From IMG/VR virus record IMGVR_UViG_3300042868_000105, positions 1-24,091 of that record: DNA of 24,091 nucleotides, one strand, 5' to 3'. Below are positions 6,390-22,028 of the stretch, one piece after another. Origin of the DNA: a virus. Made by a program: the position numbers and the translations under genes. The stretch's first letter is position 1. The number at the start of each line of letters is the position of its first letter. A model generated the notes under the pieces. It was not told where the DNA came from. It did no database searches and worked only from the letters and a program-made list of their open reading frames with translations.

Positions 6390-6417
6390 AGCCCCTGCTT
6401 AGTCAGGGGCTTTTTTT
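6390..6417 (+). terminator. Rho-independent terminator at the convergent junction
   Basis: AGCCCCTG (6390-6397), loop CTTAGT, CAGGGGCT (6404-6411) form an 8-bp GC-rich stem directly followed by a seven-T run (6411-6417). It ends + strand transcription 7 bp after the last + gene. On the - strand the same stem has no U-tail, so it should be mainly one-directional. Confidence 0.92.
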
Positions 6418-9400
6418 CAGTCTTCTTCAAAGAACTTCTCTTCAATTTCGCCACGCAACTTCTTGTTGAATGTGACGCCGTTAATCATGTTCTTCTCAGC
6501 CGCTTTACGAGACGATTCAGACCTGCGCAACGTATCCCCAGTGATTTTGCTATTAGGGTGCTTCTCGTTAAATTCTAAAATATCTTCTCTGGTTGTAGAC
6601 ATTAAGTCCATATCCCCAGCGGTCTTAGCCATATCATGTAGGTGCAATAAACGTACACGTCGTGCGCCAACTTCTTTTTCGTAAGACTTAGCCGCTGAAG
6701 TCTTCTCGTATGTGCTAGACAGGTCGGCAGGGGAGAAGCCAATGGCTTGCATCAAAGAGTTGTAGGCGTTAATGTCTTCGTCAACTGGGTCACCCTTTAG
6801 CGTTAGTGCGCCTTCAGTCATGTAGCGCGCGCCTTTCATACCGTTACGTACAAAGCTAGGCATGATTGCCTCAATGCCACGCTCAACATTACCTTCTTTG
6901 ATCATGTTAATACCGTTGCCTACGCTAACTGCGTATGAACCAGCAGGGCCAAACATTTGTTGCATGGCTGACAAGATGTATCCATGTTCTGCAACACCAC
7001 GTGGGTCATCACGAAAAATTAGATCGGTTGCAATACCAACACGGTTTGACAATTCAAGATTGGTGACGTAGTTAAAAGCGCCCTTGTAGAGCAACTCACC
7101 AAACACATCACGCATCTCTTCATTAAATTCAAACGGCTCGTCTTCATCTCCAAACAACGCTTGGATCATCGTAGCTAATGTTGATGTAGCACCATAGAAC
7201 GGCAAGCCTTTAACACCACCAAACGCCATAGCCATGCCGTATGTACCAAGAAGTTGTCGGCGAGCCGCATGCTGAATGGCGGGGGTTTCGCCTTTAAACG
7301 CCTGATGGAAGGCACGTGCCATGATAAAAGCACTGTTCCAGACAAATGACTTAAACGTAAAGAACACACGACCAATTGGATTCTGCATCCACTTAGGCGC
7401 AGTTGCTGCTAAACCGGAAGTGTGTATATCTTTAGTTGTAGTTATTGCGTAATCAATAGAATCTTTTTCACTCATTCCGCTTTGACGAGCTAAATCGTAT
7501 GCGGCTATTGCAGTAGTTGCACGGTTATAGCGTTCAGTTGCGGCAAAAGGAATTGAAAGACCATCAAGGATACGACCTTTAAGTCCTGTGAAATCAGTAG
7601 TCTTCTGCCTGCGACCCTCAAGAACTTCACGAGCCATTGTGTGTTCTAGTTGACCGTGATCCATCATCTTCTCGTACAAGTTTTTGTACTTTGGATCTTT
7701 CTCCATACCGTTGATTGCAGTACGGCTAGCGGCAGTCATAGCAATACGAGCTTCATTAAACCCAAACTTACCGCTTAACATAGGCCACACTAGCATAGGC
7801 AGGGATGTAACGTTTATCAAAGCAGATGAAATGTTACCTGCAATAAACTCAAAGTAGCTAAGGGTTGTAGCGGCTTGAACAAACCCATTAAATGTTGGGT
7901 TATGCAGGAACTCTTTCTGTTCCATAATATTTTCAGCGGCAGCGGTTACATCTAAACGATTTACGTTCTCAGCTTGCGCTTTAATTTCGCCTAGTGCTCT
8001 ATCAATTTGCGGAGCGTATTCAGAGCTAGACAACTTACGTGCCCACTTAACCGCAGTTGTGCCGTAGCCTTTGACAATATCTCGTTCCATACCAAGCACG
8101 TTCTTAGACTTAAGGAACTGCTTAGCAATAGACTCGGCAGGGAAAAGCGTTAGGTATGCCTGATACACACTGTCAAGCTGTTGTTGACTTGCGCCCTGCT
8201 TTTGCAAATCAGCCATGATCTTGCCAACAAATGATGTTGGTGGAATTGACGATGGGTCAAACAAAATGTTTTGTAAGTTGCGGTAGCTCTTACTCTGAAT
8301 ATTTTGCGGTTTAAGAATGGTGTCAATAAACTGCTGGCGCTCACGAATAGACTCAAAAGCCATAGCAGCACGCTCACCAGTTGCAGGATCAGCAAACTCT
8401 AACCAAAAATCCCCGCTACGCAAGAATGGGATGTAAGCAGTTAACTTTTTACGAGTTGCAAACTGCTGAGTAAGTTTGGCGGCAAGCGAAGGCGACACGC
8501 TTCTAAGCAATAATTGCTCGTACTCATTCAAAGACTTCGTGTAGAAGTTACGGATGTCTCTATAGACTGTTTGCACATCAGAAGGTAAGGATGTGTAGAT
8601 GTTACGCAAACGACGGTACTGCGCGGCATTAGCAGGTGTAGTCTTAAAGTTTGCATCTAGCGGGTCTACTTCGTATAAACGGGCATCAATAGCCATGTCG
8701 TCCATACGAGTCATAGCCTGTGGGTTAGCCTTTGCAATATCAGAGAACCGCTTGTAGTCTTTGTTGATTGCAGATATGCGTTGCTCTTGCATGCCATTAC
8801 GCAACTCAAGCGCATCTAACAACTTCTGGATAGATGGCAGTTCTTTTTTGTACAACGTGTTTATGTTGTCGAGTCGCAACAACCCCATAGCTGTTTTCAT
8901 CCAGCCAAAGTCTTTCACGTTAGAGAACATGTTCTTGGTATCTTCAAGCGTTTGCCCTGCTAAAGATGGCATGCTTTGACCAATAGAACCTACTTTATTA
9001 AACGCAGAGTTAACGGCTGAACCCATACTCAGGAACATCTTGTCAGCAGGGGTTGCTTCTACCTTAGAAGAAATATCAATAGCGTCGTTAATAAACCTCA
9101 TGCCTTCTTTGTAGGCACTACGGAACCCTAAAAACTCGCCAATAGCCTGCATGATGTTTACAAACATGTTTTCGCTGCGAGGCGCTTTGATTGTCTTAAG
9201 TAAGGCTTGGAACTCTGGGTTACCTACCAACTCAGAAGCAAATTCCTGAATGTCTTGACCACCATAGGCAGTGCCCATCTGGTTTTTAATTTGTTCAAAG
9301 AACTTAACAAAGGCTTGGGTTAGCTTGTTGTTTGGGCTACGCAGTACGTGAGAGATTGCGGCGTGCACAGTCTCATGGATTATGGTGTGGTGATTTAAAC

Positions 9401-12400
9401 CAAAATCTGGATCAAGCGTAATTGTGTTAGTAGCTGGGTCATACACCCCCGCATGATTTTCCCTGCCAACATCACCAATCACAATCTTAGGTGCAATACC
9501 CAACGACTGAATCTTACGCAGTATCTGACGTACTAACTTGTTGTCGGTCTTATTAATGACGTGGCTAAGCAGGTCTTTAAAGTTACCTTTCTCAGCAAGG
9601 GCAATCCCATCAGTATCCAGCGCAGGGCCAATAGCTTTAGGCAAGAACATTTCCTGCCCGTAAATAAAGTTTAACTCACTTTTTAAAGTGTTACGACTTG
9701 CCTCGGGCAAAGAGGTAAGTACTTCATCAATAGCTTCAAGGCCCTTGCCTTGATTAAGCATCTCTTCATATCTGGCGCGTTGGCTATCACTTTGAATCCA
9801 GTTGTGGTAGACCTCATTAAGAGCTCTTTTTAACCTAGTTTTAGAAAGCTGGTTTGTAGATTTCTTTGGCTCTGGAGGTTGGTCTTCTTTTTTACGGGCT
9901 GCTATTTCTTTTTTAGCAGCTTCAATTTTTTCAGATACAAAATCTGCAAGCGACTCAGTACCTGCTTTGTTTATCACACCTAATAAAGCCTCTGGATCAT
10001 TACGATACCCTCCATTCAAAGCACCCATTGCTTCTTTTGCAAATACACCAGAACGATTAATACCTTCAGCAATTTGTTTTAATGCTTTTTCGTTCTTGGC
10101 TCTTTGGGGGGCTTCTTCAATCTTCGGAATAACTTCTTGCAAACGAAGGAACTCACTTAGCAAACGTGGCAAGCGCAACAGATCATGAATATCCGTGCCT
10201 ACAAAAGTATTAGGTAACTGCACCTCGCCTGTATTTAGATTGGCGGCTTTCTCTGCTTTACGGATTTCAGATGTGATAATGTTGTCAACCAACTTGTCAA
10301 CAGCGCGAACAAAAGTGCGGCGTTCTTGCGTATCTGCACTAGCGCCTTTCTCGGCTTTCTTTTCATCTGTAGCAGCCTTCTTGCCTAGAGGTTCTCCGGC
10401 AACTGATTGCGTTTGTCCTTCTTCCGCTGTTTGCTCGGCTTCAATGGTTTTAATGCCACTTGGGATTCCTTCGTCAAGTTGAGTATCAATAAAGCCCATA
10501 GGTTGGGCTGCGCGAGCTACAGCTTCACGTAATCTTGCAATTGTTTCTTCGGGTTTTGCTGACTTTTTAACTTCAAGACCAAGATCTCTAGCAATTGCGT
10601 TAATTTTGCTAGGGTTTAATGGAACGCCACCTTTATCTATTGCGTCTAATAAATCTTTGGCTGACTGTACTTCTGGCGGTAATGTTACTGTAGGGGCTGG
10701 CTGTTCTTCTCTTGCATCAATGTCTCCAGCATCCGGCTCAACATAAACATCTCCACTTCGTTCAAGTCCCGCATCGGTTTCGGCAGGGGTGACCAAATCG
10801 GATCCGCTATCCACGCTAGCGCTTCCTCCACTTGGTTCGGCGTTAAGTCCTGCAACATTTTGCGCTCCTTGGAATTCAGGTCTGCTAAGGTAGGCTTCAA
10901 TTTTTTGGCGAATGGGTTCACTACGGTCTTCTGCGTAGGCTTCAAGAATACGTTTGACTTCTGCGGCATCTGCTGGGTTGGAGATGTCTTTTCCGTCGAG
11001 TAACTTGTTTTTGCGAAGAAGCGCAGTATGCCCAATACCCAATCCTTTAAGTACTTCATCGTTAATCGCTGTAGGAAGTTGTTGTGGTGTAAGTGGCGTA
11101 GCTTTTTGCACCACCCTTGGTTCAGGGATAACTTCAGCTTTAGGGCCACGCTTACCGGCTAGAGTGTCTAAATCTCCTCTTGCCTGTGCAATTGTTTGTG
11201 ACAATGGTGAAGGCTGCTTAGCCAAACTTACCAAATCAGTAGGCGTATCTATAAGATCATTAATTGCGGCTTTAAGTTTTGCTTGGGCGGCTTTTACTTC
11301 AGCAGATTCACGTTGCTGTGCTAATCGTTCTTGGTTTGCAACGGCTTTATCGCCCCTTAATTTACTGGCCTCTGCCTCTTTAGTAGGCAAACCTTCGTCA
11401 CCAAACAAGCCTAGTTGCTTGCCTTTTGGTTCTTTAAGTACTGGTGGGGCGGGTTGCTCAGGCGGTAACAGTCCAGAGGCAGGCCCAATCTCAAAACCGG
11501 GTAACTGCATTTGTTGTTGGTCAGCACCAAAACTTTCAATATCTGCACTTTGCCGTCCGACTTCACCAGCAAGCAAACGTTGCTGACGCTGAGCCATAGC
11601 TTGCGCATACTGGTCTTTGCGTTCTTGACCCGCACGGAAACCTTCTGCTCCACCACCTACCGTACCAAAAGCACCACCCGCAACTGCGCCACGCACAGCG
11701 GATTCCATGATGCGGTTCCACTCTCTACTACCAAAGACGGATTCATGTTTATCTACAAAGTTTTCAGCGGCAATACTAATTGCTTCTTGCGCACCTTCGG
11801 TTAGTGACTCCGCGCCACTACCTTTTAGCATTCCAGCAGTAACGGAACGTAGCAAGCCCTTGTCCATGCCAGAGCGTTCAAGAAGTTTTTCTATGATGCC
11901 AACTTTGACAGGGCCAGTTACGCTCTTTAATAGTTGCGCAGGTAATACCGAATCTAATGCGGCTGACGCAGTTCCAAACAACATGGCGGCCCCGGGAGCC
12001 ATTTCACCGGTTTTCTCATAGATGTTTTGAAATACTTCTGGAGCGTTCTGAGCGTAAGAGCCTAGAAAGACACCAGCGTTTTGTCCAGTTGCTGCGGAAA
12101 CACCCGCACGACGAGCAAGCACGCCACCAATACCACCGGGTACAAGAGCAGTCGCAATATTGGGTACTTGTTCAGCAATAGTCTCTAAGGCAAAGCCGGG
12201 AAAGTCACCTATACCTTTAACATCACCGGTACTGCGATATTGAGGCGCATAGTACTCGTTAATTTCTTTTTGAGTATCTTGCGCTTCCTGCATCTGCTTA
12301 GCAGCGTACTCATCAAACCCAAGCGCAGACGCACCCATTGCAGGGATAACATCGCCGAAAGTAGACCCAAGCTGTTTTGCTCCTCGCGTAACAGATTTCT

Positions 12401-12545
12401 TGAGCATCTCACCAGTAGTCAACTGACCACGTGGAACCTCAAAGTCGTATTTTTTAGAAAGACGTTCTAACTGCCCATTAAATTCCTCTTCGGACAGGTC
12501 ATCACGAAAACGTACTAGCCCGATTTTTGGAAGGTCAAGGATCAT
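6417..12545 (-). CDS. Giant virion/ejected protein with HExxH zincin motif and PLxRFG-like C-terminal region
   Basis: A 2042-aa protein, the last gene of the late block. The N-terminal 300 residues are rich in Ala/Gly helices (GGIGGVLARRAG-type) that could insert in membranes. A disordered Gln/Pro-rich region follows (about 310-450), holding QLGLF at residues 377-381. The charged middle (about 640-950) is helical. HETVH at 1057-1061, after ITLDPDFGLNHHTI and followed by EFASELV, fits a gluzincin-type metallopeptidase. The C-terminal third has hydrophobic helices (SYFEFIAGNISSALINV near 1560) and NPIGRVFFTFKSF near 1722, resembling the PLxRFG region of giant phage proteins. This architecture suits an internal protein that is packaged and ejected into the host, possibly cutting host proteins there. 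That role is inference; a structural-only role is possible. No Shine-Dalgarno precedes the ATG, only an AT-rich leader. Confidence 0.8.
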   Translation of the reverse strand: MILDLPKIGLVRFRDDLSEEEFNGQLERLSKKYDFEVPRGQLTTGEMLKKSVTRGAKQLGSTFGDVIPAMGASALGFDEYAAKQMQEAQDTQKEINEYYAPQYRSTGDVKGIGDFPGFALETIAEQVPNIATALVPGGIGGVLARRAGVSAATGQNAGVFLGSYAQNAPEVFQNIYEKTGEMAPGAAMLFGTASAALDSVLPAQLLKSVTGPVKVGIIEKLLERSGMDKGLLRSVTAGMLKGSGAESLTEGAQEAISIAAENFVDKHESVFGSREWNRIMESAVRGAVAGGAFGTVGGGAEGFRAGQERKDQYAQAMAQRQQRLLAGEVGRQSADIESFGADQQQMQLPGFEIGPASGLLPPEQPAPPVLKEPKGKQLGLFGDEGLPTKEAEASKLRGDKAVANQERLAQQRESAEVKAAQAKLKAAINDLIDTPTDLVSLAKQPSPLSQTIAQARGDLDTLAGKRGPKAEVIPEPRVVQKATPLTPQQLPTAINDEVLKGLGIGHTALLRKNKLLDGKDISNPADAAEVKRILEAYAEDRSEPIRQKIEAYLSRPEFQGAQNVAGLNAEPSGGSASVDSGSDLVTPAETDAGLERSGDVYVEPDAGDIDAREEQPAPTVTLPPEVQSAKDLLDAIDKGGVPLNPSKINAIARDLGLEVKKSAKPEETIARLREAVARAAQPMGFIDTQLDEGIPSGIKTIEAEQTAEEGQTQSVAGEPLGKKAATDEKKAEKGASADTQERRTFVRAVDKLVDNIITSEIRKAEKAANLNTGEVQLPNTFVGTDIHDLLRLPRLLSEFLRLQEVIPKIEEAPQRAKNEKALKQIAEGINRSGVFAKEAMGALNGGYRNDPEALLGVINKAGTESLADFVSEKIEAAKKEIAARKKEDQPPEPKKSTNQLSKTRLKRALNEVYHNWIQSDSQRARYEEMLNQGKGLEAIDEVLTSLPEASRNTLKSELNFIYGQEMFLPKAIGPALDTDGIALAEKGNFKDLLSHVINKTDNKLVRQILRKIQSLGIAPKIVIGDVGRENHAGVYDPATNTITLDPDFGLNHHTIIHETVHAAISHVLRSPNNKLTQAFVKFFEQIKNQMGTAYGGQDIQEFASELVGNPEFQALLKTIKAPRSENMFVNIMQAIGEFLGFRSAYKEGMRFINDAIDISSKVEATPADKMFLSMGSAVNSAFNKVGSIGQSMPSLAGQTLEDTKNMFSNVKDFGWMKTAMGLLRLDNINTLYKKELPSIQKLLDALELRNGMQEQRISAINKDYKRFSDIAKANPQAMTRMDDMAIDARLYEVDPLDANFKTTPANAAQYRRLRNIYTSLPSDVQTVYRDIRNFYTKSLNEYEQLLLRSVSPSLAAKLTQQFATRKKLTAYIPFLRSGDFWLEFADPATGERAAMAFESIRERQQFIDTILKPQNIQSKSYRNLQNILFDPSSIPPTSFVGKIMADLQKQGASQQQLDSVYQAYLTLFPAESIAKQFLKSKNVLGMERDIVKGYGTTAVKWARKLSSSEYAPQIDRALGEIKAQAENVNRLDVTAAAENIMEQKEFLHNPTFNGFVQAATTLSYFEFIAGNISSALINVTSLPMLVWPMLSGKFGFNEARIAMTAASRTAINGMEKDPKYKNLYEKMMDHGQLEHTMAREVLEGRRQKTTDFTGLKGRILDGLSIPFAATERYNRATTAIAAYDLARQSGMSEKDSIDYAITTTKDIHTSGLAATAPKWMQNPIGRVFFTFKSFVWNSAFIMARAFHQAFKGETPAIQHAARRQLLGTYGMAMAFGGVKGLPFYGATSTLATMIQALFGDEDEPFEFNEEMRDVFGELLYKGAFNYVTNLELSNRVGIATDLIFRDDPRGVAEHGYILSAMQQMFGPAGSYAVSVGNGINMIKEGNVERGIEAIMPSFVRNGMKGARYMTEGALTLKGDPVDEDINAYNSLMQAIGFSPADLSSTYEKTSAAKSYEKEVGARRVRLLHLHDMAKTAGDMDLMSTTREDILEFNEKHPNSKITGDTLRRSESSRKAAEKNMINGVTFNKKLRGEIEEKFFEED

Positions 12546-12548
12546 GGT

Positions 12549-12564
12549 AAATTAAATTTAATTT
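12549..12564. repeat. 16-bp perfect AT palindrome upstream of the giant virion gene
   Basis: AAATTAAATTTAATTT reads the same on both strands. It fills the only gap (18 nt) between the transglycosylase stop and the giant gene's ATG. It may serve as an unstructured, S1-type translation leader where no Shine-Dalgarno exists. It has neither the GC stem nor the length of a terminator. Confidence 0.7.
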
Positions 12565-14594
12565 TATGCGTCTTCAGCATCAAGGATACCAGCCCCGCTT
12601 TGGTTTTCAGCTAAATAACCTTGAATAAATTTTATGCGTCCACGTTCGTATTGTTCACGCAACTTAGTATCGTTCTTCCAATCCTTCTTTTTACTTGTCA
12701 AGTCTTTAATTAAAGAAGTGTAGTCGTCACTATCTTTCCAAGATTTTTCAGCTTTTATGTTAAATTCTTGAGCAGCACGGGTACCCATGAGTTTATTTTT
12801 AGCCGCAGCGTTATTTGCATTCTGTTGCTTAATAGCCAAGTCAGCCTCACGGAACAACTTCATGTTGTTGTCTGCAAGTGCTTTACGCTTAATATCTTCC
12901 AAATGCATTTTGTTGTACAGGTCTGCGCGGGATAACCCTAACATACCTTGTTGAATTGCTCGGTCGTCAGCAGACTCTTGCTTGCGCCCTGCCATGTATG
13001 CGGCTATACCTTGGCTTGCGCCTTGACCAATGTTTGCTCCAGCGTAACGGGATGTGCCACCCATCATGCCAAGACCGGCTTGTAAGAGCGCCAAGTACTT
13101 ATTGGTCTCTTTATCTTTACCAAGTTGTTCTTTGCGATCTTTAAGATACGAAGCGTATTCACCAATGTAGTCACCCATTGGATTAGTAAGAGCAGGCTCT
13201 TCGGCTTTAGCTGCCCCCGCTGTTGGTGGGGTATACCTAGCAGCTTTTTCTGCGGCGATTGATGCTTCGTCAGGGTTAACCATATCCATTTTTTGTGGAA
13301 TTGGTGTATCACTTACTTTATTTTGTGCAAGTTTAACTGGCGGAGGTGTTTTAAGGATTTCTGGGGGTTTACCAACGCCAGTACCCTGTTGCATCATGTT
13401 GCCTAGATACGGCCTTGCCGCACCAGTCTGTTCAGCTAAATTTTTATACCCAATCTCTAAAGCGTTCCTACGCGCCATAGATTCATTAAGTTTTTGCTTC
13501 CATCCCATAAATTCTCGACTGCCAACAGGAGGCTGGTTATTCTTAAATAACTTAATTTCTTCATCAGCGTCATTAATTTGTTGGTCAATAATGCCAATTT
13601 GATTGGCTATTTCTGGTGATGCGTATTTATCAAAGGGGTTATTTATTCCACCAACTTGGAAATGGCGAACTTCACCTCCAGCAGCCATGTCAGCAGAATA
13701 CTTTTGCGTCTCACGTGGCAACTTAGATGGATCTGCGCCAGCTACCAACCACTTGTCTGTATTGCCAGGCCCCCAGTTGTATGCAATTGCTGCCAACTTA
13801 GGATCTTTATACTTATCCAACATTACGTTAAAGTATTCACGACCGACACGGGCTAAGTCATCAGGGTCACCTGCACGGGCAGGGCGGATACCAAAACCAG
13901 GGTCACGTGCCGTTCCGGGCATCACTTGCATTTCGCCCTGCGCACCTTTGGGCGAAGTCAACAAGTTACCGTCCTTGTCGTAGCGACGTCCACCACTTTC
14001 TTTTTGCATGATCTTGTTGATCAGCGACTCAGGAGCTATACCTTCTTTAGTCAGTTGGGTAATGCCTTCGCTTCTAGTTTGCTTAGGCTCGTTACCAACT
14101 TTAGATGAAACTTCACGTTTAGTAGATTGCATAGCAGCTTTAGCAGCGCCAGCGGGTAATGCCCCAATACCAGACATTTCTTCATACTCATCGCCAGACG
14201 CCATGCGGCTACGCAAGATGTTAAACAGTTGTTTTTCATCTTCACCCATACCCATAAGATCATCATCGTCTTCTTCATCTTCATCGGCTTCACCGCCGTC
14301 AGCAAATGCAATAATGCCACCGGGAGCGTATCCCTCAACAGGTAAGCCAGTAGATAGTCCTTCAAGCCCAGTACTTTGCGCGGCTTCACCCAAAATTTGC
14401 TGTGCAATAGGAGGCTCATTTCCTTGTTCCATCCCACCCATTAGAGCCTCTTGCTTTTTTTGGGCTTGCATTTTTTCTTGGATTAGTGGGACGCCAATAT
14501 AAGCAGGTACAGTACCGTTCTGCACGCCCTGTGTGAGCATGTCGATAGAGTAGCCATCGGGATCAGCGATGATTTTTTGGGCAATACCGTTCAT
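12564..14594 (-). CDS. Virion-associated SLT-type lytic transglycosylase
   Basis: A 676-aa protein with a clear soluble lytic transglycosylase domain at about 185-290: INKIMQKESGG with catalytic Glu199, GAQGEMQVMPGTA, then LAAIAYNWGPGNTDKW. It would cut peptidoglycan locally so DNA and internal proteins can cross the wall at infection, the role of such domains in T7-like internal proteins. Before the domain lies GGIIAFADGG (92-101) and an acidic run (about 103-112, nearly all Asp/Glu). After it comes GGEVRHFQVGG (306-316), a motif shared with the 888-aa neighbour. The remaining 350 residues are Gln/Ala/Lys-rich helix and linker, including a hydrophobic Gly-Met-rich patch (LGMMGG) near 515. 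The ATG overlaps the previous stop by one base (TAATG), so translation is coupled. Catalysis by Glu199 is family knowledge; location in the virion is inferred from context. Confidence 0.88.
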   Translation of the reverse strand: MNGIAQKIIADPDGYSIDMLTQGVQNGTVPAYIGVPLIQEKMQAQKKQEALMGGMEQGNEPPIAQQILGEAAQSTGLEGLSTGLPVEGYAPGGIIAFADGGEADEDEEDDDDLMGMGEDEKQLFNILRSRMASGDEYEEMSGIGALPAGAAKAAMQSTKREVSSKVGNEPKQTRSEGITQLTKEGIAPESLINKIMQKESGGRRYDKDGNLLTSPKGAQGEMQVMPGTARDPGFGIRPARAGDPDDLARVGREYFNVMLDKYKDPKLAAIAYNWGPGNTDKWLVAGADPSKLPRETQKYSADMAAGGEVRHFQVGGINNPFDKYASPEIANQIGIIDQQINDADEEIKLFKNNQPPVGSREFMGWKQKLNESMARRNALEIGYKNLAEQTGAARPYLGNMMQQGTGVGKPPEILKTPPPVKLAQNKVSDTPIPQKMDMVNPDEASIAAEKAARYTPPTAGAAKAEEPALTNPMGDYIGEYASYLKDRKEQLGKDKETNKYLALLQAGLGMMGGTSRYAGANIGQGASQGIAAYMAGRKQESADDRAIQQGMLGLSRADLYNKMHLEDIKRKALADNNMKLFREADLAIKQQNANNAAAKNKLMGTRAAQEFNIKAEKSWKDSDDYTSLIKDLTSKKKDWKNDTKLREQYERGRIKFIQGYLAENQSGAGILDAEDA

Positions 14595-15832
14595 TATTTC
14601 CCCGCATTCAAAGCGTTACGTAAACCAAGTGTATCAATACCTTGGCCCTTTGGTTCTTTGATAGTACCCCCTGCCCTCTTCATCAAACCATAAGCACCGG
14701 CCGCTGCTGTGCCAAGACCTGCGATTTGTGAAGTCATGCTAGGCGGAGCTTGATACTGCGTAGTTGTCATGCCGGGAATAGCGTAGCCACGCAACAAAGC
14801 GTTGTACTGGTTGTAAGCCTGCATAGGAGCTTGCTGCTGCTGTGCATAATTGTTGATAGCATTAGAGATAATTTGCTGCTCTTGGGCTTGCTGCTGACCA
14901 CCAATTTGTTGTTGTAAGCCTAAGATGCCTTGTTGCGCGCCCAATTGTTGAGAGCCAATGTTGGCTAAGTTAGTACCGGCTTGCCCAGCCATGCCGTAGC
15001 CTTGTTGCGCAGTGTTTAAACCCTGAAGGCCAAGACCTGCGCCATACTGCATATTTTGCAGTGCGCCTTGATATGCGGCTTGTTGTCCCTGCAACTGGTT
15101 GTTGTTCATCATGCTTTGCAATGCACGATTGGCTTCGGCATTTTCAATAGCCTGACGGCTACCACCAAAAGCACCCGATCTAGTAGCTTGTGCATTGCGT
15201 TGAGTTCTAGCAATATCTGCTTGACGCTGGGCAGCTTGGTTCTGGATGTCTACCACATTCTGCATGTAAGGCGACATAAAAGAACCAACAGAATTGCTTG
15301 CATCGTACCCACCAGTTTTAGGGTTGTATACGTTGCTTGTTGCGCTTAAATAATCGCCACCCATACCTTGCGCTTGCTGTGCAGTGCCAAGAGCGCCCAT
15401 ACCGCCAAGACCAGTTAGGCCAGTAGCTTGATTGTATTGGCCGGGCACTTGCAAGTTTGCAGCGTTGTACTGAACTTGCTGTTGCAAAGGGCTAAAGCCT
15501 GCTACATAGTCTCGTGGGTCAGCACTATACGGTTTGAATGTATCTTTTTTAACGCCAGTAACATTTTTTACTGGTTGCCCTGAATCATTTAATATGGGTT
15601 GATTAGTTGCTGGATCTATGGCGGCTTTAGTATCAAACAACTCTTCCATAGAGCCGCCAAGCACGGTCTCAACCTGAGGACGTAGCCAGTCAGGAATGTT
15701 TGATGTGTTGGTTGTCGAGGATGTGGGGCCACCGCCGCCGCCACCATAAATGATGCGACCGCCTTCTTTGCGGGTAACAGACTCACCAAGGGGCTCACCC
15801 ATGGCATAAAGTTCTCGGCGGGAATAGCTCAT
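14594..15832 (-). CDS. Gln/Ala/Gly-rich virion structural protein, probably an internal or tail component
   Basis: A 412-aa protein. Residues 22-35 are a GGRI-Gly-rich turn, and residues 40-65 contain DWLRPQVETVLGG, a phrase that recurs in phage virion proteins. From about 110 to 350 it is made of long Gln/Ala/Asn helices (MQNVVDIQNQAAQRQADIAR, later QQQAPMQAYNQYN). The C-terminus (350-412) has a short hydrophobic Gly-Ala helix (IAGLGTAAAGAYGLMKRAGG), possibly membrane-touching. Such composition fits the ejected internal proteins of podovirus-like phages (gp14/gp15 position), here between a gp13-like protein and a transglycosylase. A GAGG 9 nt before the ATG and a 4-nt overlap with the previous gene support the start. 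No enzyme motif is visible. Confidence 0.75.
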   Translation of the reverse strand: MSYSRRELYAMGEPLGESVTRKEGGRIIYGGGGGGPTSSTTNTSNIPDWLRPQVETVLGGSMEELFDTKAAIDPATNQPILNDSGQPVKNVTGVKKDTFKPYSADPRDYVAGFSPLQQQVQYNAANLQVPGQYNQATGLTGLGGMGALGTAQQAQGMGGDYLSATSNVYNPKTGGYDASNSVGSFMSPYMQNVVDIQNQAAQRQADIARTQRNAQATRSGAFGGSRQAIENAEANRALQSMMNNNQLQGQQAAYQGALQNMQYGAGLGLQGLNTAQQGYGMAGQAGTNLANIGSQQLGAQQGILGLQQQIGGQQQAQEQQIISNAINNYAQQQQAPMQAYNQYNALLRGYAIPGMTTTQYQAPPSMTSQIAGLGTAAAGAYGLMKRAGGTIKEPKGQGIDTLGLRNALNAGK

Positions 15833-16260
15833 ATTAGTACCTCAACAAGGGTATTTCTAGGTTCAAAGTCGTATCGTTTCCAGAGGCGAACGATTGCATC
15901 TCGTCCATACCCCTGTATTTTCGTCGTACCACGCAGTTTTAACAAGGCTTTAAATTGCTCAAAAGTTTCTTGGCTTGAAATAAGTTTGCCACCAATAGCC
16001 GTCACAAACGCCACCCGATGCATGTGGTAGTTAATGAACGATATAGTTGCAGCGCCTTGTATTTCTTTTTCTTCATCTACTGCAACAACAAGCAGCCAAG
16101 CGCCATTAGTTAAAAAACTTTGAATATGGTCAACCGTGTAATCTTGCGCCCAATCAGGGAAGTCGCCACCTTTTGCCATGGCTTCTTCAAGAAAAGGTTT
16201 TACCATAGGCCAGACTTGCTGGATATAGTTAGTTTCAACGTGACTAATCTTTAAGCTCAT
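15829..16260 (-). CDS. T7 gp13-like internal virion protein with GNAT-like fold
   Basis: A 143-aa protein with the strand-helix order of a GNAT acetyltransferase: an N-terminal helix with [20 protein letters not shown], a strand [10 protein letters not shown], then [10 protein letters not shown], and a C-terminal [20 protein letters not shown], which mimics the GNAT 'lyeklGF.p' ending. The usual acetyl-CoA loop (Q/RxxGxG/A) is not convincing; IGGKLI stands where it would be. The protein may therefore have kept the fold without catalysis, as is known for the T7 gp13 internal virion protein family. It overlaps both neighbours by 4 nt (ATGA) inside the virion block, which supports a structural or assembly role rather than metabolism. 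An active acetyltransferase cannot be excluded. Confidence 0.65.
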
Positions 16261-18923
16261 TTAGGCAAGTTCTTAATAAGTTCCGCAATACCACCGCCAA
16301 ATGTTTGTGCAGTAGGTTGTGTTTTGTTGTACTGGCTAAACGGTGTATTTAATCCAGTAGTACGCCCATAACGTGCGTTCTCTAAATCTGTTGCAGTCAA
16401 ACTATTTCTGCGCATTTCTGCCAGTACTTGGTTCATATCCGCACCCCTAGGAGAACCATCAGGATATGTTTGAGCCATTTGCTGATCAGCAAACGCACGC
16501 AAGTTTTGATTCAATTGCGCAATACCCATGTTACCAGGAGTATTTGCATAGTTATACCCGGCGGAAGTCACTGGGTCTCTGCCATAGTTGCTTGCATTGA
16601 ACATCGTCAATGGGTCAGCATAATTTTGATACTGTGAACGGTAAATGTTCCTGTTAGGTGCCGTAACAGTAGGCACGTAAGGTGTCACCGGAGTTACCGG
16701 AGTTACCGGAGGCACTACCACAGGGGGCAATACTACAGGGGGCAATACTACAGGTGTACCGCCATCGCCACCATCCCCGCCATCGCCACCATCCCCGCCA
16801 TCGCCACCATCACCACCATCACCACCATCTCCGCCATCGCCACCATCACCCCCGTCACCACCATCCCCGCCATCACCACCATCACCCCCATCGCCTCCGT
16901 CACCAGTACCCGTACCGCCAATACCAGTTCCACCGGTTCCAGTTCCAGTTCCGCCAGTACCTGTACCACCAGTTCCAGTTCCGCCAGTACCCGTACCACC
17001 AGTGCCTACACCGCCAGTTCCAGTTCCGCCAATACCTGTTCCACCAGTACCTGTACCGGTTCCGCCTGTTCCAGTACCACCAGTTCCAGTTCCGCCCGTG
17101 CCAGTTCCACCAGTTCCAGTTCCGCCAGTACCCGTACCACCTATGCCGGTGCCGCCAGTTCCAGTTCCAGTTCCGCCCGTGCCAGTACCACCAGTCCCAG
17201 TTCCGCCAGTTCCAGTTCCGCCCGTAGCAGTGCCACCAGTACCCGCAGTGCCAGTAGTAGCCCCACCAGTACCACCAGTTCCAGAAGTTGAGCCAGTGCC
17301 AGAAGTTCCACTAGTCCCACCAGAAGTAGTAATAACTGCGCCGGGAGTGCTAGTTCCACCGCCACCGCCACTAGTTCCACCGCCACCACCGCCCTCACCA
17401 CCGCCACCGCCACCGCCACCACCGCCACCGCCACCACCAGTAGGTAGGCCAGTCAATCCAGCTATTCCTGTTGAAGTTGTAGTACCAGCAGTACCAGTAT
17501 TACTAGCAGTACCAGCAGTACCAGTATTACTAGCAGTACCAGTTGTTCCAGTTGTTCCAGTTGTGTTATTAGTAGTATTACTAGTATTTGTTGTAGTTGG
17601 TGTGGTCGTAGTTGTAGTTGGTGTAGTCGTAGTTGTAGTTGTATCTGTAAAAGGCGTAGTTAAAGTAGGTGTAGTTGTAACTGTAGTTGTGTCTGTAAAA
17701 GGCGTAGTTAAAGTTGGTGTGTTTGTACCAGTTGTAATATTGTTAGTACCAGTTGTAACGTTATTAGTACCAGTTGTAGTTGGTGTAGTTGTAACCGTGT
17801 TGCCGTTTAAATCAACATAAGTTACTGGCGTGTTGTAGTTACCTGTGCCAATAATGCCATATTGAGTTTGAATTAAATCGCTTGGACTTGCAGTAGATCC
17901 TGAGCCAAATAAAGGTGATGTTGTAGATAAGTTGTTAGACGTACCCGTGCCATACAACCCGCCAAGAGTTGTTGTATCTGCTGCGGTTGTAGAACTTGCA
18001 GGGGTTGTAGAACCCGTACCCGTACCGGTACCGCCAGTTGTGTCTAAGCCTGCAATACCTGTACTACCTGTATCTGTGCCTGTACCCGCACTTGTACCAG
18101 TAGATGAGCCTGTAGATGAACCTGTAGATGAGCCAGCAGGTACTGTTGTAACGGTTCCATCACCATTATCTAAATATGTAATGCCGCCAACGGTAACGTC
18201 TACTCTGGGATTAAAGGTCGAGTTAGTATCTCCACCAACAGTATTTCCACTGCTATCAAGATTTGAAATAGTTCCGCTTGAATCAATTGCAGTATAGGTT
18301 CCGTTAGGATTTGCAACAACTGTAGAACCACTTGATAAAGTATCTGTTATGGATGAAGGAACTGTATCGCCAAAGGCACCATAAGTGTTGGACACGTTTC
18401 CATCTAGTACAGTAGCATTAGCATTTAAGCCGCTACCTATACCATAGTCATCAAGATTAGTACTAAAAGTAGAATTACCACTAGTATCAAGATTAACGTT
18501 ATTAAAATTATCTACGTAAACAGGTTCAACAACGTCAGTGCCATCATTAAAAAGAGCAAAGGGTGACCGAGGGCGGGTAAGGCTATCGTCATTATCAACT
18601 ACGAAATTTCCCACTGTGCCAAAATTAGCTCCACCGCCAAACCCACCGCCAAAATCGTTACCGCCAAAGTCGTAACCACCACCAAAGTCGCCGCCAAAGT
18701 CGTAGCCACCGCCACCACCACCGCCATCAGCTTGATAACCAAAAGAGTCTTCTAGGCCACCAGCTAGGAAGTGTTTTACGCCCCGTGAGTCTACGTTGCC
18801 GCCATTAGCAAAACCAGCGATGCGACCACCAGTACCGTATTTAATTACGGGCTCACTAGGGTTGGTATTACCCTCACCTTGGTTATCAAGGGCTTGACTA
18901 AATGCTGCACCACCACCGGCCAT
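16257..18923 (-). CDS. Low-complexity Gly/Thr-rich repeat protein of the virion block
   Basis: An 888-aa protein with ordinary-looking ends around an extreme repeat core. Residues 32-42 ([11 protein letters not shown]) and 49-56 (VKHFLAGG) are motifs shared with nearby virion proteins. Next come YDFGG repeats, a Thr/Ser/Asn-rich region (about 130-490) with several short tandem repeats, a poly-Gly run, an array of GGTGT units, 16 Gly-Asp-Gly triplets, and a Pro-rich VVLPP/TPV hinge. The last 145 residues are a non-repetitive, probably folded domain ([20 protein letters not shown] onward). Synonymous codons vary inside the arrays, which argues for protein-level constraint. A clear AAGGAG lies 6 nt before the ATG. 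It may be a flexible spacer or fibre-like element; collagen-type Gly-X-Pro triplets are absent. The family is not recognised. Array lengths may vary through slippage or be affected by assembly. Confidence 0.75.
16758..16904 (-). repeat. 9-bp array encoding 16 Gly-Asp-Gly units
   Basis: 147 bp of tandem 9-mers of the form GGNGAYGGN (read on the - strand), each coding Gly-Asp-Gly. Sixteen Asp codons (mostly GAT, two GAC) are spaced exactly 9 bp apart, and glycine third positions vary freely. Confidence 0.95.
16905..17225 (-). repeat. 15-bp GGTGT array with 111-bp higher-order period
   Basis: 321 bp coding mainly Gly-Gly-Thr-Gly-Thr units, broken at regular intervals by an Ile variant (codons at 16920, 17031 and 17142). 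Successive Ile codons are exactly 111 bp (37 codons) apart, showing that a multi-unit block was duplicated. Silent differences separate the copies. Confidence 0.92.
17355..17438 (-). repeat. Poly-glycine codon tract
   Basis: 84 bp almost entirely of GGN codons (mostly GGC and GGT), coding runs of 5, 6 and 14 glycines separated by ThrSer or Glu. Confidence 0.9.
17481..17540 (-). repeat. 27-bp perfect tandem repeat (2.2 copies)
   Basis: Bases 17481-17507 and 17508-17534 are identical, and a partial third copy follows. Each codes nine residues (ThrGlyThrAlaSerAsn-type). Perfect identity points to a recent duplication. Confidence 0.93.
17644..17739 (-). repeat. 48-bp imperfect tandem duplication
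   Basis: TCTGTAAAAGGCGTAGTTAA occurs at 17644 and 17692, exactly 48 bp apart. The copies agree for about 37 bp and then diverge. They code the twin [11 protein letters not shown] segments. Confidence 0.85.
18097..18132 (-). repeat. 12-bp tandem repeat (3 copies)
   Basis: Three near-identical 12-mers (CCTGTAGATGAG type on the + strand) code successive GlySerSerThr units. Confidence 0.85.
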
Positions 18924-18933
18924 GTTGTTCTCC

Positions 18934-19824
18934 TTATGCGGGTAAATACTTACGTGGCTGGATTTGTCGGCCTTGTTTTGAATTGCCAGTACGAGCTTGA
19001 CGTACTTTGTTCATCATGGAATAAAGCTGCTTAGCGCCTGCATCGGTTGAGCCATTACCCAAGTGAGAAACGACATCGGCTGGCACAACAAACTCACCAT
19101 CAGCTAAACGGGCAGGTTGTTTACGTCCAATACGTGCGGGTATGCTGTCAGACATACCATCGCCGGGGCCTTTAAGCATGCGGCCTCCATCGGAGTAGCC
19201 ACCTAAACTTGCAATACCACCGGTCTGACCACCACGAGCAAAACCGTATGGGCGGTATGCGCTTGGGTCAAATCTATACTGGCTAAGTGCGCCACTGTAT
19301 TCTTTCTTTCTAGGTACGCCACCACGCATTTGATCAAAAGCTTGACTAGCTCTATCAAATATGCCTTGTGGGGCTGCAGCACTTGGAGCAGTTGCAGGCA
19401 TAGAATCAATTGAATACTGCACAGCAGGATTACTACCTAGCATAGACGTACCCGGCGCACCAGCACCAGCAGTTCCAGGTAATGGGGCAAAGTCAGGATT
19501 AAGTGCGCCTATACCACTACCTGTTTGTGCACTAATAGCTTCAGGTAAAACCGCAGTTGTAGACGCCGCACCGGGAACTGCACCAGCCGCCTCGCCAGCA
19601 GCCGCACCAGCACTACCAAGCACAGCGCTACCAGCACCGCCCATCAAACCACCAAGAAGTGCGCCCTGCAATGGGTCTTTACCTTGTATAAGTGATGATC
19701 CACCACCAACAGCAGCGCCGGTCATCATGGCGTTTAGAAGAGCCGCTTCGCCAACACCCCCGCCAATGTAGAGATTACGTGTGCCATCACGACGATAGCC
19801 GTTAAATTTATTTGGTATAAGCAT
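18934..19824 (-). CDS. Glycine-zipper virion protein with conserved [19 protein letters not shown]-terminal domain
   Basis: A 296-aa protein. Residues 20-85 are a run of small-residue hydrophobic helices ([20 protein letters not shown]) with GxxxG spacing, typical of segments that pack in or cross membranes. A Pro/Ala-rich linker follows. At 194-213 is [16 protein letters not shown]. The C-terminal part (219-280) reads [20 protein letters not shown], then [20 protein letters not shown] and a basic helix. From memory, this is a widespread module in proteins of phage virion blocks. AAGGAG lies 10 nt before the ATG. Neighbours are a 90-aa protein and the repeat protein. Role as a minor virion or ejected membrane-active component is inferred. 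Confidence 0.75.
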
Positions 19825-19857: not shown

Positions 19858-20130
19858 TCATGTTGACGTCTTTATGCGAAGCATTTGACTTGTTGCTTGC
19901 ACACCATCTTGTGTATCTCTATAAACATCACCTAACCTCAGGTTAGGCAGGTCTGCATCAGTGGGTAGAGTATTAAGATTAAGATTCAAAGTAGCAGCGC
20001 CAACATCGCCTGGATTGTTTAACTGGTTAAAGAACAGACGCAAAATGTTATTAAGCTGATCTTGATACCGGCGCTCATATTCATCTGGGGCCAACGGCAA
20101 GTTAGGCGTGGTTACGTTTAGTTCAGCCAT
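19858..20130 (-). CDS. Small virion-block protein with LRLFFNQLNN motif
   Basis: A 90-aa protein. The segment YQDQLNNILRLFFNQLNNPG (about 21-40) forms an amphipathic helix, and its 'LRLyFNQldn' wording recurs in small proteins of phage structural gene clusters. The C-terminal half is short strands and turns (LRLGDVYRDTQDG). Its ATG overlaps the previous stop by one base (TAATG), so it is translated with the 632-aa structural protein and may bind it as an assembly partner. Biochemical function is unknown. Confidence 0.72.
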   Translation of the reverse strand: MAELNVTTPNLPLAPDEYERRYQDQLNNILRLFFNQLNNPGDVGAATLNLNLNTLPTDADLPNLRLGDVYRDTQDGVQATSQMLRIKTST

Positions 20131-22028
20131 TAACGTCTACCATCCGGTCTAATATCAATACGAGGAGCGCCTAACTGCCAAGCAGTATTAATTTGGTTAG
20201 ACCCAATCTTAAAGATCATTTGGCGACCACGTAATCGAGTATAAATCTGCCCAGTAAATTCTTCGGTAATTACATACGTACTACTTTTGGCTACAGGTTG
20301 TGCAGCAGTGCTTGTTACGCCAGAACCTGAATTAGCTAATCCATACAAAGTCATCGTAACAGAAGGAACACTTCCAGTTGGAGTGTTAGTAGAGTCTTCA
20401 AAAGTTAAATCAGGCAATACGCGCCAGATAAAACCAAAGTTGTGACCATCACCAATATCAAATTCAGACGAACTAATGTAAGCATCAATTGCAATCGTTG
20501 TACCGGTTTCGTTGTTGTTTAACCCACTTTCGTGGTTCACAAGATTTCCTGTACTTGTAGATGGATCGTATACAGCCGCTAGTGGGAAACCTCGTAATCC
20601 TGAATCAAGCCAAGCAGAACGCTCCATAGTGCCGTAGTACCATATTTTTTCAAGATAGTTATACACAACATACTTGTCAATTAACGTGCTACCAGCAGAA
20701 GGGTAGAACCACCAAGCCTCATTAAAGCCTTCGTTAGTCCCACAAAAAACTTGTTCGGTTTGTTCTAAATTAAGGTCTTGGAAAATAAAGCGGCGCAGAT
20801 CACAGTTAAGCGTTTGCACGCGACCATCGTAGGCATAGAACTTATCAACGCCCATCCAGTAAACAACACCAGAGGCAATCACTGCCGCATTAGGACTAAT
20901 GATTGAGATGTTGTCACCAAGCAGTTGTGAGCCCCAAACAAAAGGAGGGCCAAGATACTGTAAGGAATATATAGCTGAGTCTGTAAACACTACAATCTCT
21001 TGACGAGTTTGCACAGTGGTAATAATTTCAGAACCATGAGAAAGTCTTAAACTACCTGCTTGATTGGTTATTGCCGGTATCCAAGTAAATGGATCTTCTT
21101 GATCTGACCAGCGAATAAACATTGGGTCTATTGCAGTCGGATTTGTTGCATTAGGATCATTTGTACCAAACACAATTACAAAACGAGAGGCGTCAGAAAC
21201 AGTAAGACTATTTTGAACTACAGGTGTTTCAGCATCTCCAAGGGTTGTAAGATTTACACCTCTGGTAGTTACACTAGTCGTGGCATCCCAATAATAGATA
21301 CCTCCACCACGGGGGCCAAAAAGTAAATCTTGACCAAAATTCATTTGGCTCCACAGCCGTAAACTTGAAATAGGCGTACCACCAAACCCCCATGTACCAG
21401 CGCCCCAAGCACCAGCGCCCCAGCCAGTTAGTGGCACAGCAAACGCAGGGCCAGCATTAAGTTGATATGCCGCAACAACTGAAGCCCCACCACCGGGAGA
21501 TCCTGCAATAGCTGTAGCGTTAGGTGTTACGGAGATTGTGATTGTGTAACTATTAGCATCAATAACAGTGACTTGAAACTGTTGGTTTAATACAGCAGCC
21601 GTAACGTTTGTACCAACACTGCCAATATCAACAGCACCACTATAAGTTACAAACGTGCCAGTAGTTGCACCATGCGCTGTATCCGTAACAGTAACGGTGG
21701 TAGAGGCCGTCAGAGCAAACGGGTTGTTGTTAATGGTAACTGTGGAGCGAATTGGCGTGATGTCGTTGTACGCACCGCCTTGCTCAATGTAAAACTTAGT
21801 ATTAGTTCCAACACCTACTAAATTTTGGTTTTGTAGCGTGACCCAGTTCCATAGTGAACGGCATATACCGTTGTATGTATAACCTGAAATGCGCTGCCAA
21901 CCGCCAATTACTTCGGGATTACCCTGACGAAAACGTACCTTGTCGCACTCATACCAACCGCCCTCGGTTGTGTACCGCGTGTTTTCTTTATTCACGCCGG
22001 GTTTGAACAGTATTTTTTGTAATGGCAT
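20130..22028 (-). CDS. Large virion structural protein, probably tail tube/nozzle or DNA-stabilisation type
   Basis: A 632-aa, beta-rich protein. The N-terminus (LFKPGVNKENTRYTTEGGWY then CDKVRFRQGNPEVIGGWQRI) is a conserved opening of podovirus-like structural proteins. Residues 100-190 form what looks like an inserted Ig-like unit with TVTVTDTAHGATTGTFVTYS and FQVTVIDANSYTITIS strands, a module found repeatedly in phage virion proteins. At 201-218 a Gly/Trp run (GWGAGAWGAGTWGFGG) follows. The rest shows repeated aromatic strands (FVWGSQLLGDNISIISP, GVVYWMGVDKFYAYDGR) consistent with a propeller-like fold, as in T7 gp12 or P22 gp10-type proteins. It ends MIFKIGSNQINTAWQLGAPR. The AAAGG 8 nt before the ATG supports the start. 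The exact tail role is inference. Confidence 0.75.
   Translation of the reverse strand: MPLQKILFKPGVNKENTRYTTEGGWYECDKVRFRQGNPEVIGGWQRISGYTYNGICRSLWNWVTLQNQNLVGVGTNTKFYIEQGGAYNDITPIRSTVTINNNPFALTASTTVTVTDTAHGATTGTFVTYSGAVDIGSVGTNVTAAVLNQQFQVTVIDANSYTITISVTPNATAIAGSPGGGASVVAAYQLNAGPAFAVPLTGWGAGAWGAGTWGFGGTPISSLRLWSQMNFGQDLLFGPRGGGIYYWDATTSVTTRGVNLTTLGDAETPVVQNSLTVSDASRFVIVFGTNDPNATNPTAIDPMFIRWSDQEDPFTWIPAITNQAGSLRLSHGSEIITTVQTRQEIVVFTDSAIYSLQYLGPPFVWGSQLLGDNISIISPNAAVIASGVVYWMGVDKFYAYDGRVQTLNCDLRRFIFQDLNLEQTEQVFCGTNEGFNEAWWFYPSAGSTLIDKYVVYNYLEKIWYYGTMERSAWLDSGLRGFPLAAVYDPSTSTGNLVNHESGLNNNETGTTIAIDAYISSSEFDIGDGHNFGFIWRVLPDLTFEDSTNTPTGSVPSVTMTLYGLANSGSGVTSTAAQPVAKSSTYVITEEFTGQIYTRLRGRQMIFKIGSNQINTAWQLGAPRIDIRPDGRR

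Follow-up and report, generated by a model that had tools for sequence, protein, structure and literature searches.

Amino-acid tandem repeats (aaTRs) of Borgs, which are archaeal elements, are in-frame, of independent and recent origin, fast-evolving, under selection at the protein level and mostly predicted to be disordered (PMC9879509). By analogy, they are the closest known parallel to the viral gene described here. Both systems have unit lengths divisible by three in an intact open reading frame (ORF) and several repeats per ORF (PMC9879509). They also share independent arrays, quick change between relatives (seen here in unrelated middles and in the contig pair L002/L003) and protein-level selection on the repeats, which here takes the form of an excess of silent changes. 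On the other hand, Borg repeats occur in many genes as well as in intergenic regions, are often perfect and are enriched in extracellular proteins (PMC9879509), whereas the arrays of the clade studied here concentrate in one phage virion block, in a gene that keeps its ends while its entire middle is replaced.

Other described systems share single traits with this locus. Collagen-like genes of prophages and of the Guarani virophage (PMC3368898, PMC7242381) likewise encode viral stalks of low-complexity repeats flanked by end domains. In contrast to these, the units found here are mostly not G-X-Y, are wholly different between relatives and lie in an ejection block, not in a side-tail region; only (GDG)16 fits a continuous G-X-Y pattern among the arrays of the window and its relatives. 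BACON-domain repeats in tail proteins of crAss-like phages (PMC6949934) are also structural-region repeats shaped by repeated duplication and exchange, but they are folded domains of one family, whereas the present units are short, of low complexity and from unrelated families. The 'tail tape measure protein' of podophage DSL-LC04 (OR003939) lies in the same block and has a 43-aa motif that recurs in the homologs L006 and L089; ahead of its C-terminal motif it also bears a tandem array, of SYAGMDLSSAQGTLGGP units. Unlike it, the array protein of the window clade is encoded by a separate gene, with its own C-terminal domain and without the DGEF C-terminal motif. In a survey of low-complexity regions, the longest phage region was 115 aa under stringent criteria, which differ from the measure used below (PMC6821194).

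The stretch of DNA analyzed here (the window, W) is a single IMG/VR virus record of 24,091 nt. It comes from a freshwater phage whose relatives include DSL-LC04 and, at a greater distance, pelagiphage HTVC023P. Positions are those of the whole window. L-numbers denote relative contigs, which were collected with a 632-aa stabilisation-type protein (PHROG 3287) among the queries.

Tandem arrays between the conserved ends of one gene

The gene and its parts are listed below; arrays were located with Tandem Repeats Finder (TRF), the conserved parts by alignment and profile.

16257..18923, minus: 888-aa gene, conserved at both ends and with several arrays in its middle; uninterrupted ORF from ATG to stop, with relatives
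18714..18923, minus: N-terminal conserved part (MAGGGxAF..)
18660..18726, minus: 30-bp array
18100..18134, minus: 12-bp array, 2.9 copies (SSTG x3)
17720..17778, minus: 21-bp array (units of T-G-T-N-N-V/I-T type)
17607..17727, minus: 48-bp array, 2.5 copies, also present in L003
17481..17542, minus: 27-bp array (GTASNTGTA), 2.3 copies, 100% identity
17356..17439, minus: poly-Gly run (GGN codons)
16903..17245, minus: 15-bp units within three 111-bp higher-order blocks, differences mostly silent
16758..16905, minus: 9-bp (GDG)16 array, every inter-unit difference silent
16711..16754, minus: 15-bp array (PVVLP), Pro-rich, preceding the C-terminal part
16687..16711, minus: 9-bp array (TPV)
16260..16679, minus: C-terminal conserved part, with a short ortholog in L113-L115

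A sequence-only reading of this DNA had described many repeat families in one intact frame, with periods that are multiples of three. TRF found all of these families and added three arrays absent from that description (the 15-bp PVVLP, 21-bp and 30-bp arrays); the period was divisible by three in all 25 TRF rows of the gene. The arrays cover 1026 of the 2667 nt, compared with a mean of 6 and a maximum of 66 nt when its codons were shuffled 100 times, and elsewhere in the 24 kb only two weak rows were obtained at an equal threshold. After permutation of synonymous codons, which leaves the protein unchanged, ∼840 nt were still in arrays, and the array signal is therefore mostly protein repetition rather than DNA identity. 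By a simple entropy measure, low-complexity sequence makes up 56% of the 888-aa protein versus 0-11% of six other virion-block proteins. Two antisense ORFs of 181 and 272 aa face the arrays on the plus strand (window 16682-17820); such frames are expected as by-products of stop-free repeats.

Both ends of the protein are conserved. The C-terminal 140 aa have a mean column identity of 72% in an alignment of 10 sequences, and the C-terminal parts of these aligned sequences are 68-94% identical to that of the window. In the N-terminal 65 aa, MAGGG is retained in most aligned members, and a profile of this part recovers the gene in every window-clade contig that reaches the gene start. Neither the whole protein nor its C-terminal part had a relative among 50,697 isolated phage records (tblastn), and bacterial and archaeal genome contigs held no relative of the protein. 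Searches of Pfam, PHROG and NCBIfam returned no match to the 888-aa protein and hence none to a tape-measure or ejection family, and a literature search returned no publication on this gene family. AlphaFold models were uninformative on fold and disorder, with a mean pLDDT of 45 for the C-terminal part, at an alignment depth of only 10 sequences, and of 38 for the full length (mostly about 30-40 across the arrays), at a depth of only 7 sequences. No reverse transcriptase, as expected near the target of a diversity-generating retroelement, was found among the scanned proteins of the 24-kb record.

Array types and short orthologs among relatives

The gene is present in 14 IMG/VR contigs. Complete copies span 451-920 aa, and relatives within the window clade differ completely between the conserved ends. 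L003 has the window's array type, in 920 aa. L004, L006 and L089 (509, 451 and 482 aa, respectively) combine ..DEISEIIITTDRP.. units with Pro/Thr repeats, while L007 and L008 have DPYV/DPFV units enclosing a Hint-like domain, in 599 aa. PSPGPGT/PGTGLT units are found in L092 (775 aa), L010 and L099, and FGEGVGESVSGD units in L005. The Hint/intein-like domain lies in the middle of the DPYV array, at about aa 285-410 of the homolog in L007 (L007:4564-6363), and was also seen in L008 and L020; in L007 it gives a weak PT-HINT match (E 3.5e-4, under Pfam's cut-off) and ends in ..LLSHNK.

Relatedness of the middles was scored against local-composition shuffles. The middles of W and L003 are clearly related (z 42), and those of L004, L006 and L089 are mutually related (z 11-16). 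The window middle compared with those of L004, L006, L007, L089 and L092 gave z values of -0.5 to 2.7, and all remaining pairs, with L005 left out, gave -3.2 to 2.7. There are thus four or more array types with no relationship to one another, and probably five when L005 is counted. One part of the L010 middle is common to the window and another to L092.

More distant phages, L113-L115, were found by a search with the highly conserved 143-aa gene downstream of the array gene. At the same place and in exact synteny, L113 and L114 carry short genes of 157 and 169 aa, which start Gly-rich, continue with a short linker and finish in NTNIYRPTYTDYARSSTPAVSDYG..PFGQF..GIASLY, similar to the C-terminus of the window protein. 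Matches of the short orthologs to the family profile are modest (E 0.0024-0.021), yet they ranked first; in the reverse search with a profile of the short orthologs, only the members of that profile ranked above the window family, whose matches began at E 4e-5. The Gly stretch of L113 and L114 already contains small arrays, of 9 and 12 bp. In L115, the short ortholog is fused, at the same position, to the end of a tape-measure-like gene, giving a 514-aa ORF (L115:3457-5001). The gene had earlier been called length-variable, in line with products of 157 to 920 aa across relatives, whose arrays are not of identical length.

The simplest reading of this series is that a short linker may have been expanded in the window clade. 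The ancestral linker was probably just short and Gly-rich, a state that the 157-169-aa orthologs retain; in the window clade it would have been enlarged by in-frame tandem duplication, with copy number still changing.

Change and selection within the arrays

L002 and L003 are 100% identical across 5997 nt downstream of the gene, and the 1012-nt part of the gene that was compared differs by one copy of a 24-bp in-frame repeat and seven substitutions, of which the GDG array holds five. The two contigs are separate assemblies with neighbouring IMG sample numbers, and mis-assembly within the repeats may account for the difference. This single pair is the basis for the claim of copy-number change; global alignments of L091 with L089 and among L092, L099 and L010 gave gap lists that were too noisy. 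The 27-bp array of the window is absent from L003, its 94-95% identical relative, which fits the recent origin proposed for these identical copies in the sequence-only reading.

Besides such changes in copy number, entire middles differ where the ends do not. C-termini are 86% identical between L006 and L007 and 87% identical between L089 and L092, yet the middles of each pair are unrelated, and L099 combines a stabilisation protein 87% identical to that of L089 with the array type of L092. Array type does not track the flanks, and therefore the whole middle has been replaced in addition to any copy-number change. Replacement probably proceeds through recombination within the conserved ends, or else new arrays are born and overgrow the middle; the underlying mutational mechanism would be slippage during replication or unequal recombination. 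The earlier proposal that the gene is slippage-driven thus holds in part. In-frame array changes between near-identical contigs agree with it, but copy-number slippage alone is insufficient because unrelated arrays replace whole middles between conserved ends.

The 111-bp blocks had also been noted to differ silently, and a comparison of silent with coding changes bears this out. The three blocks differ almost solely at third codon positions. For these blocks together with the 16 GDG units, the minimum tally is 39 silent to 3 coding changes, against an expected silent share of 33% (p 6e-16); as array copies are not independent events, p-values of this kind are indicative, although the trend itself is clear. 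Comparison of adjacent copies gave 53 silent to 9 coding changes in the window gene and 128 to 79 across ten members, against an expectation of about 30% silent. The excess is not universal, as the three arrays of L092 show 5 silent and 26 coding changes. Since silent changes between array copies far exceed expectation, coding changes have been removed, and the arrays are not neutral but under strong protein-level constraint. Selection would retain the reading frame, the low complexity and each array's own unit peptide, without favouring any particular unit.

Position in the tape-measure/ejection block and possible role

The gene is surrounded by the following virion genes.

20130..22028, minus: stabilisation-type virion protein, 632 aa (PHROG 3287)
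18934..19824, minus: upstream neighbour, protein with a tape-measure-like C-terminal motif, 296 aa, fused to the short ortholog in L115
15829..16260, minus: 143-aa downstream neighbour without a database family; identity within the clade 86-92%, marking the orthologous position
14594..15832, minus: PHROG 'DNA ejection protein', 412 aa (E 5e-5)
12564..14594, minus: lytic transglycosylase (SLT) domain protein, 676 aa (domain match)
6417..12545, minus: large virion/DNA-transfer type protein, 2042 aa (database scan)

The 143-aa neighbour had been considered as acetyltransferase-like or T7 gp13-like; both candidates were dropped, with no database support even at E 10. The C-terminal motif of the 296-aa protein recurs widely among these phages and is similar to the ends of tail tape-measure proteins.

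By gene order, the array gene lies within the tape-measure/ejection module, and in L115 its short ortholog is fused to a gene of that module. DSL-LC04 has a similar gene order, in which tape measure and DNA transfer proteins are annotated; the lectin-like genes of DSL-LC04 are found elsewhere, upstream of the lysis genes. The 43-aa motif GRxGDTMLAHIxPxEAxxLKxxGGxGTINPxTGLPEF is found in the L006 and L089 homologs and in tape-measure-like proteins of more than 20 contigs as well as DSL-LC04, with the strongest matches at E 6e-18 to 7e-12. Among the homologs of the array protein it occurs only in L006 and L089, and the window copy is without it. The L115 fusion and this motif tie the protein to the tape-measure/ejection module. 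No family name was found for the motif, which is spread over different block proteins (L006, L089, L011, L015, L033, L034, L040, L102 and others).

Within 87 loci of the wider group, arrays make up 4.2% of the bases between the stabilisation and ejection genes versus 0.5% elsewhere, and all 119 arrays have a period divisible by three. Other long block proteins, in L021, L044, L068, L078 and L088, also hold large arrays (PTPTPT, AKTKADADAQ, APTTTV, APPV), several of which extend to the contig end. On the basis of this enrichment and of these proteins, arrays are common in the block and extreme in the 888-aa gene.

On comparative grounds, the best reading, held with moderate confidence, is that the gene encodes a component of the tape-measure/ejection module whose middle is a probably disordered tether. 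The protein would presumably be present in the virion, with the conserved ends acting as attachment or assembly segments on either side of the long middle. The Hint-like domain within the L007 array counts against a pure spacer. A more specific proposal, a dedicated exchangeable-spacer locus with fixed connector ends and a disordered spacer that is continually swapped or regrown, so that the ejection apparatus is matched to the envelope of the host, is doubtful. The surface element put forward in the sequence-only reading found no evidence, its context being a tape-measure/ejection block and not a tail-fibre region. A surface fibre or decoration, in which the arrays would form a collagen-like or Pro/Thr-rich stalk displaying the C-terminal part and their turnover would tune reach, host range or host avoidance, is nonetheless worth weighing as a tentative, if rather unlikely, alternative. 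Some side-tail proteins of prophages have collagen-like G-X-Y stalks (PMC3368898), copy-number loss in a collagen-like gene of the Guarani virophage accompanied a change in host range (PMC7242381), (GDG)n formally matches G-X-Y, and an exposed part suits rapid turnover. Most relatives, however, are without a G-X-Y array (DPYV, PTEPP, ITTDRP, PSPGPGT), and domain searches found no trimerisation, lectin or fibre domain in the protein. Moreover, the gene sits in the ejection block, away from a position like that of the DSL-LC04 lectin-like genes, and is fused to a tape-measure-like gene in L115.

It is improbable that the middle is neutral filler, growing and shrinking by slippage while only the ends matter. 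Units are not conserved between lineages, the length range is nearly sixfold, and multiples of three would follow from frame preservation alone; yet the silent excess between copies (39:3 as a minimum, 128:79 across members) speaks against absence of constraint, and every characterised window-clade middle remains low-complexity. We give little weight to a cassette locus, in which diversifying selection would favour the exchange of ready-made middles among co-occurring phages through recombination at the conserved ends, much like exchangeable fibre tips. Such swapping would agree with the incongruent identity patterns of the flanking genes, which array type does not follow (L089-L092, L006-L007, L099), with the L010 middle that is part window and part L092, and with the Hint-like domain in L007, but apart from that domain the swapped middles carry no recognisable binding domain, the genomes are few, and whole-block mosaicism would yield the same pattern without selection for exchange. 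An assembly artefact, by which short-read assembly made or rearranged the repeats, is very hard to credit. Assemblers do struggle at this gene, as 6 of the 14 relative contigs end within it (L002, L005, L010, L091, L094, L099). Nevertheless, the frame is open in every contig, assembly error is not expected to give silent-change patterns, and array families recur in independent contigs (W and L003; L089 and L090, which are identical; L007 and L008, also identical), an agreement that makes an artefact unlikely.

The locus provides a natural series, comprising a short ortholog, a fused form, at least four unrelated array types and a near-identical pair that differs in an array, in which the birth, replacement and selection of viral disordered regions can be studied, with selection acting on amino-acid composition and not on a fixed sequence. 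If the protein belongs to the ejection apparatus, the effect of spacer length on DNA delivery becomes open to testing. The repeat arrays also explain the frequent contig breaks at this gene in these freshwater phages.

Two further observations concern neighbouring proteins of the block. A GG-[IVL]-x-x-[FL] (GGIxxF-type) motif, a pattern picked post hoc that also matches one unrelated protein, recurs in the window repeat, SLT and 296-aa proteins and in block proteins of DSL-LC04 and HTVC023P. In the more distant phages, apparent counterparts of the 412-aa and 676-aa genes are fused (L113:5429-7960; L114:5426-7873; L115:5429-8161).
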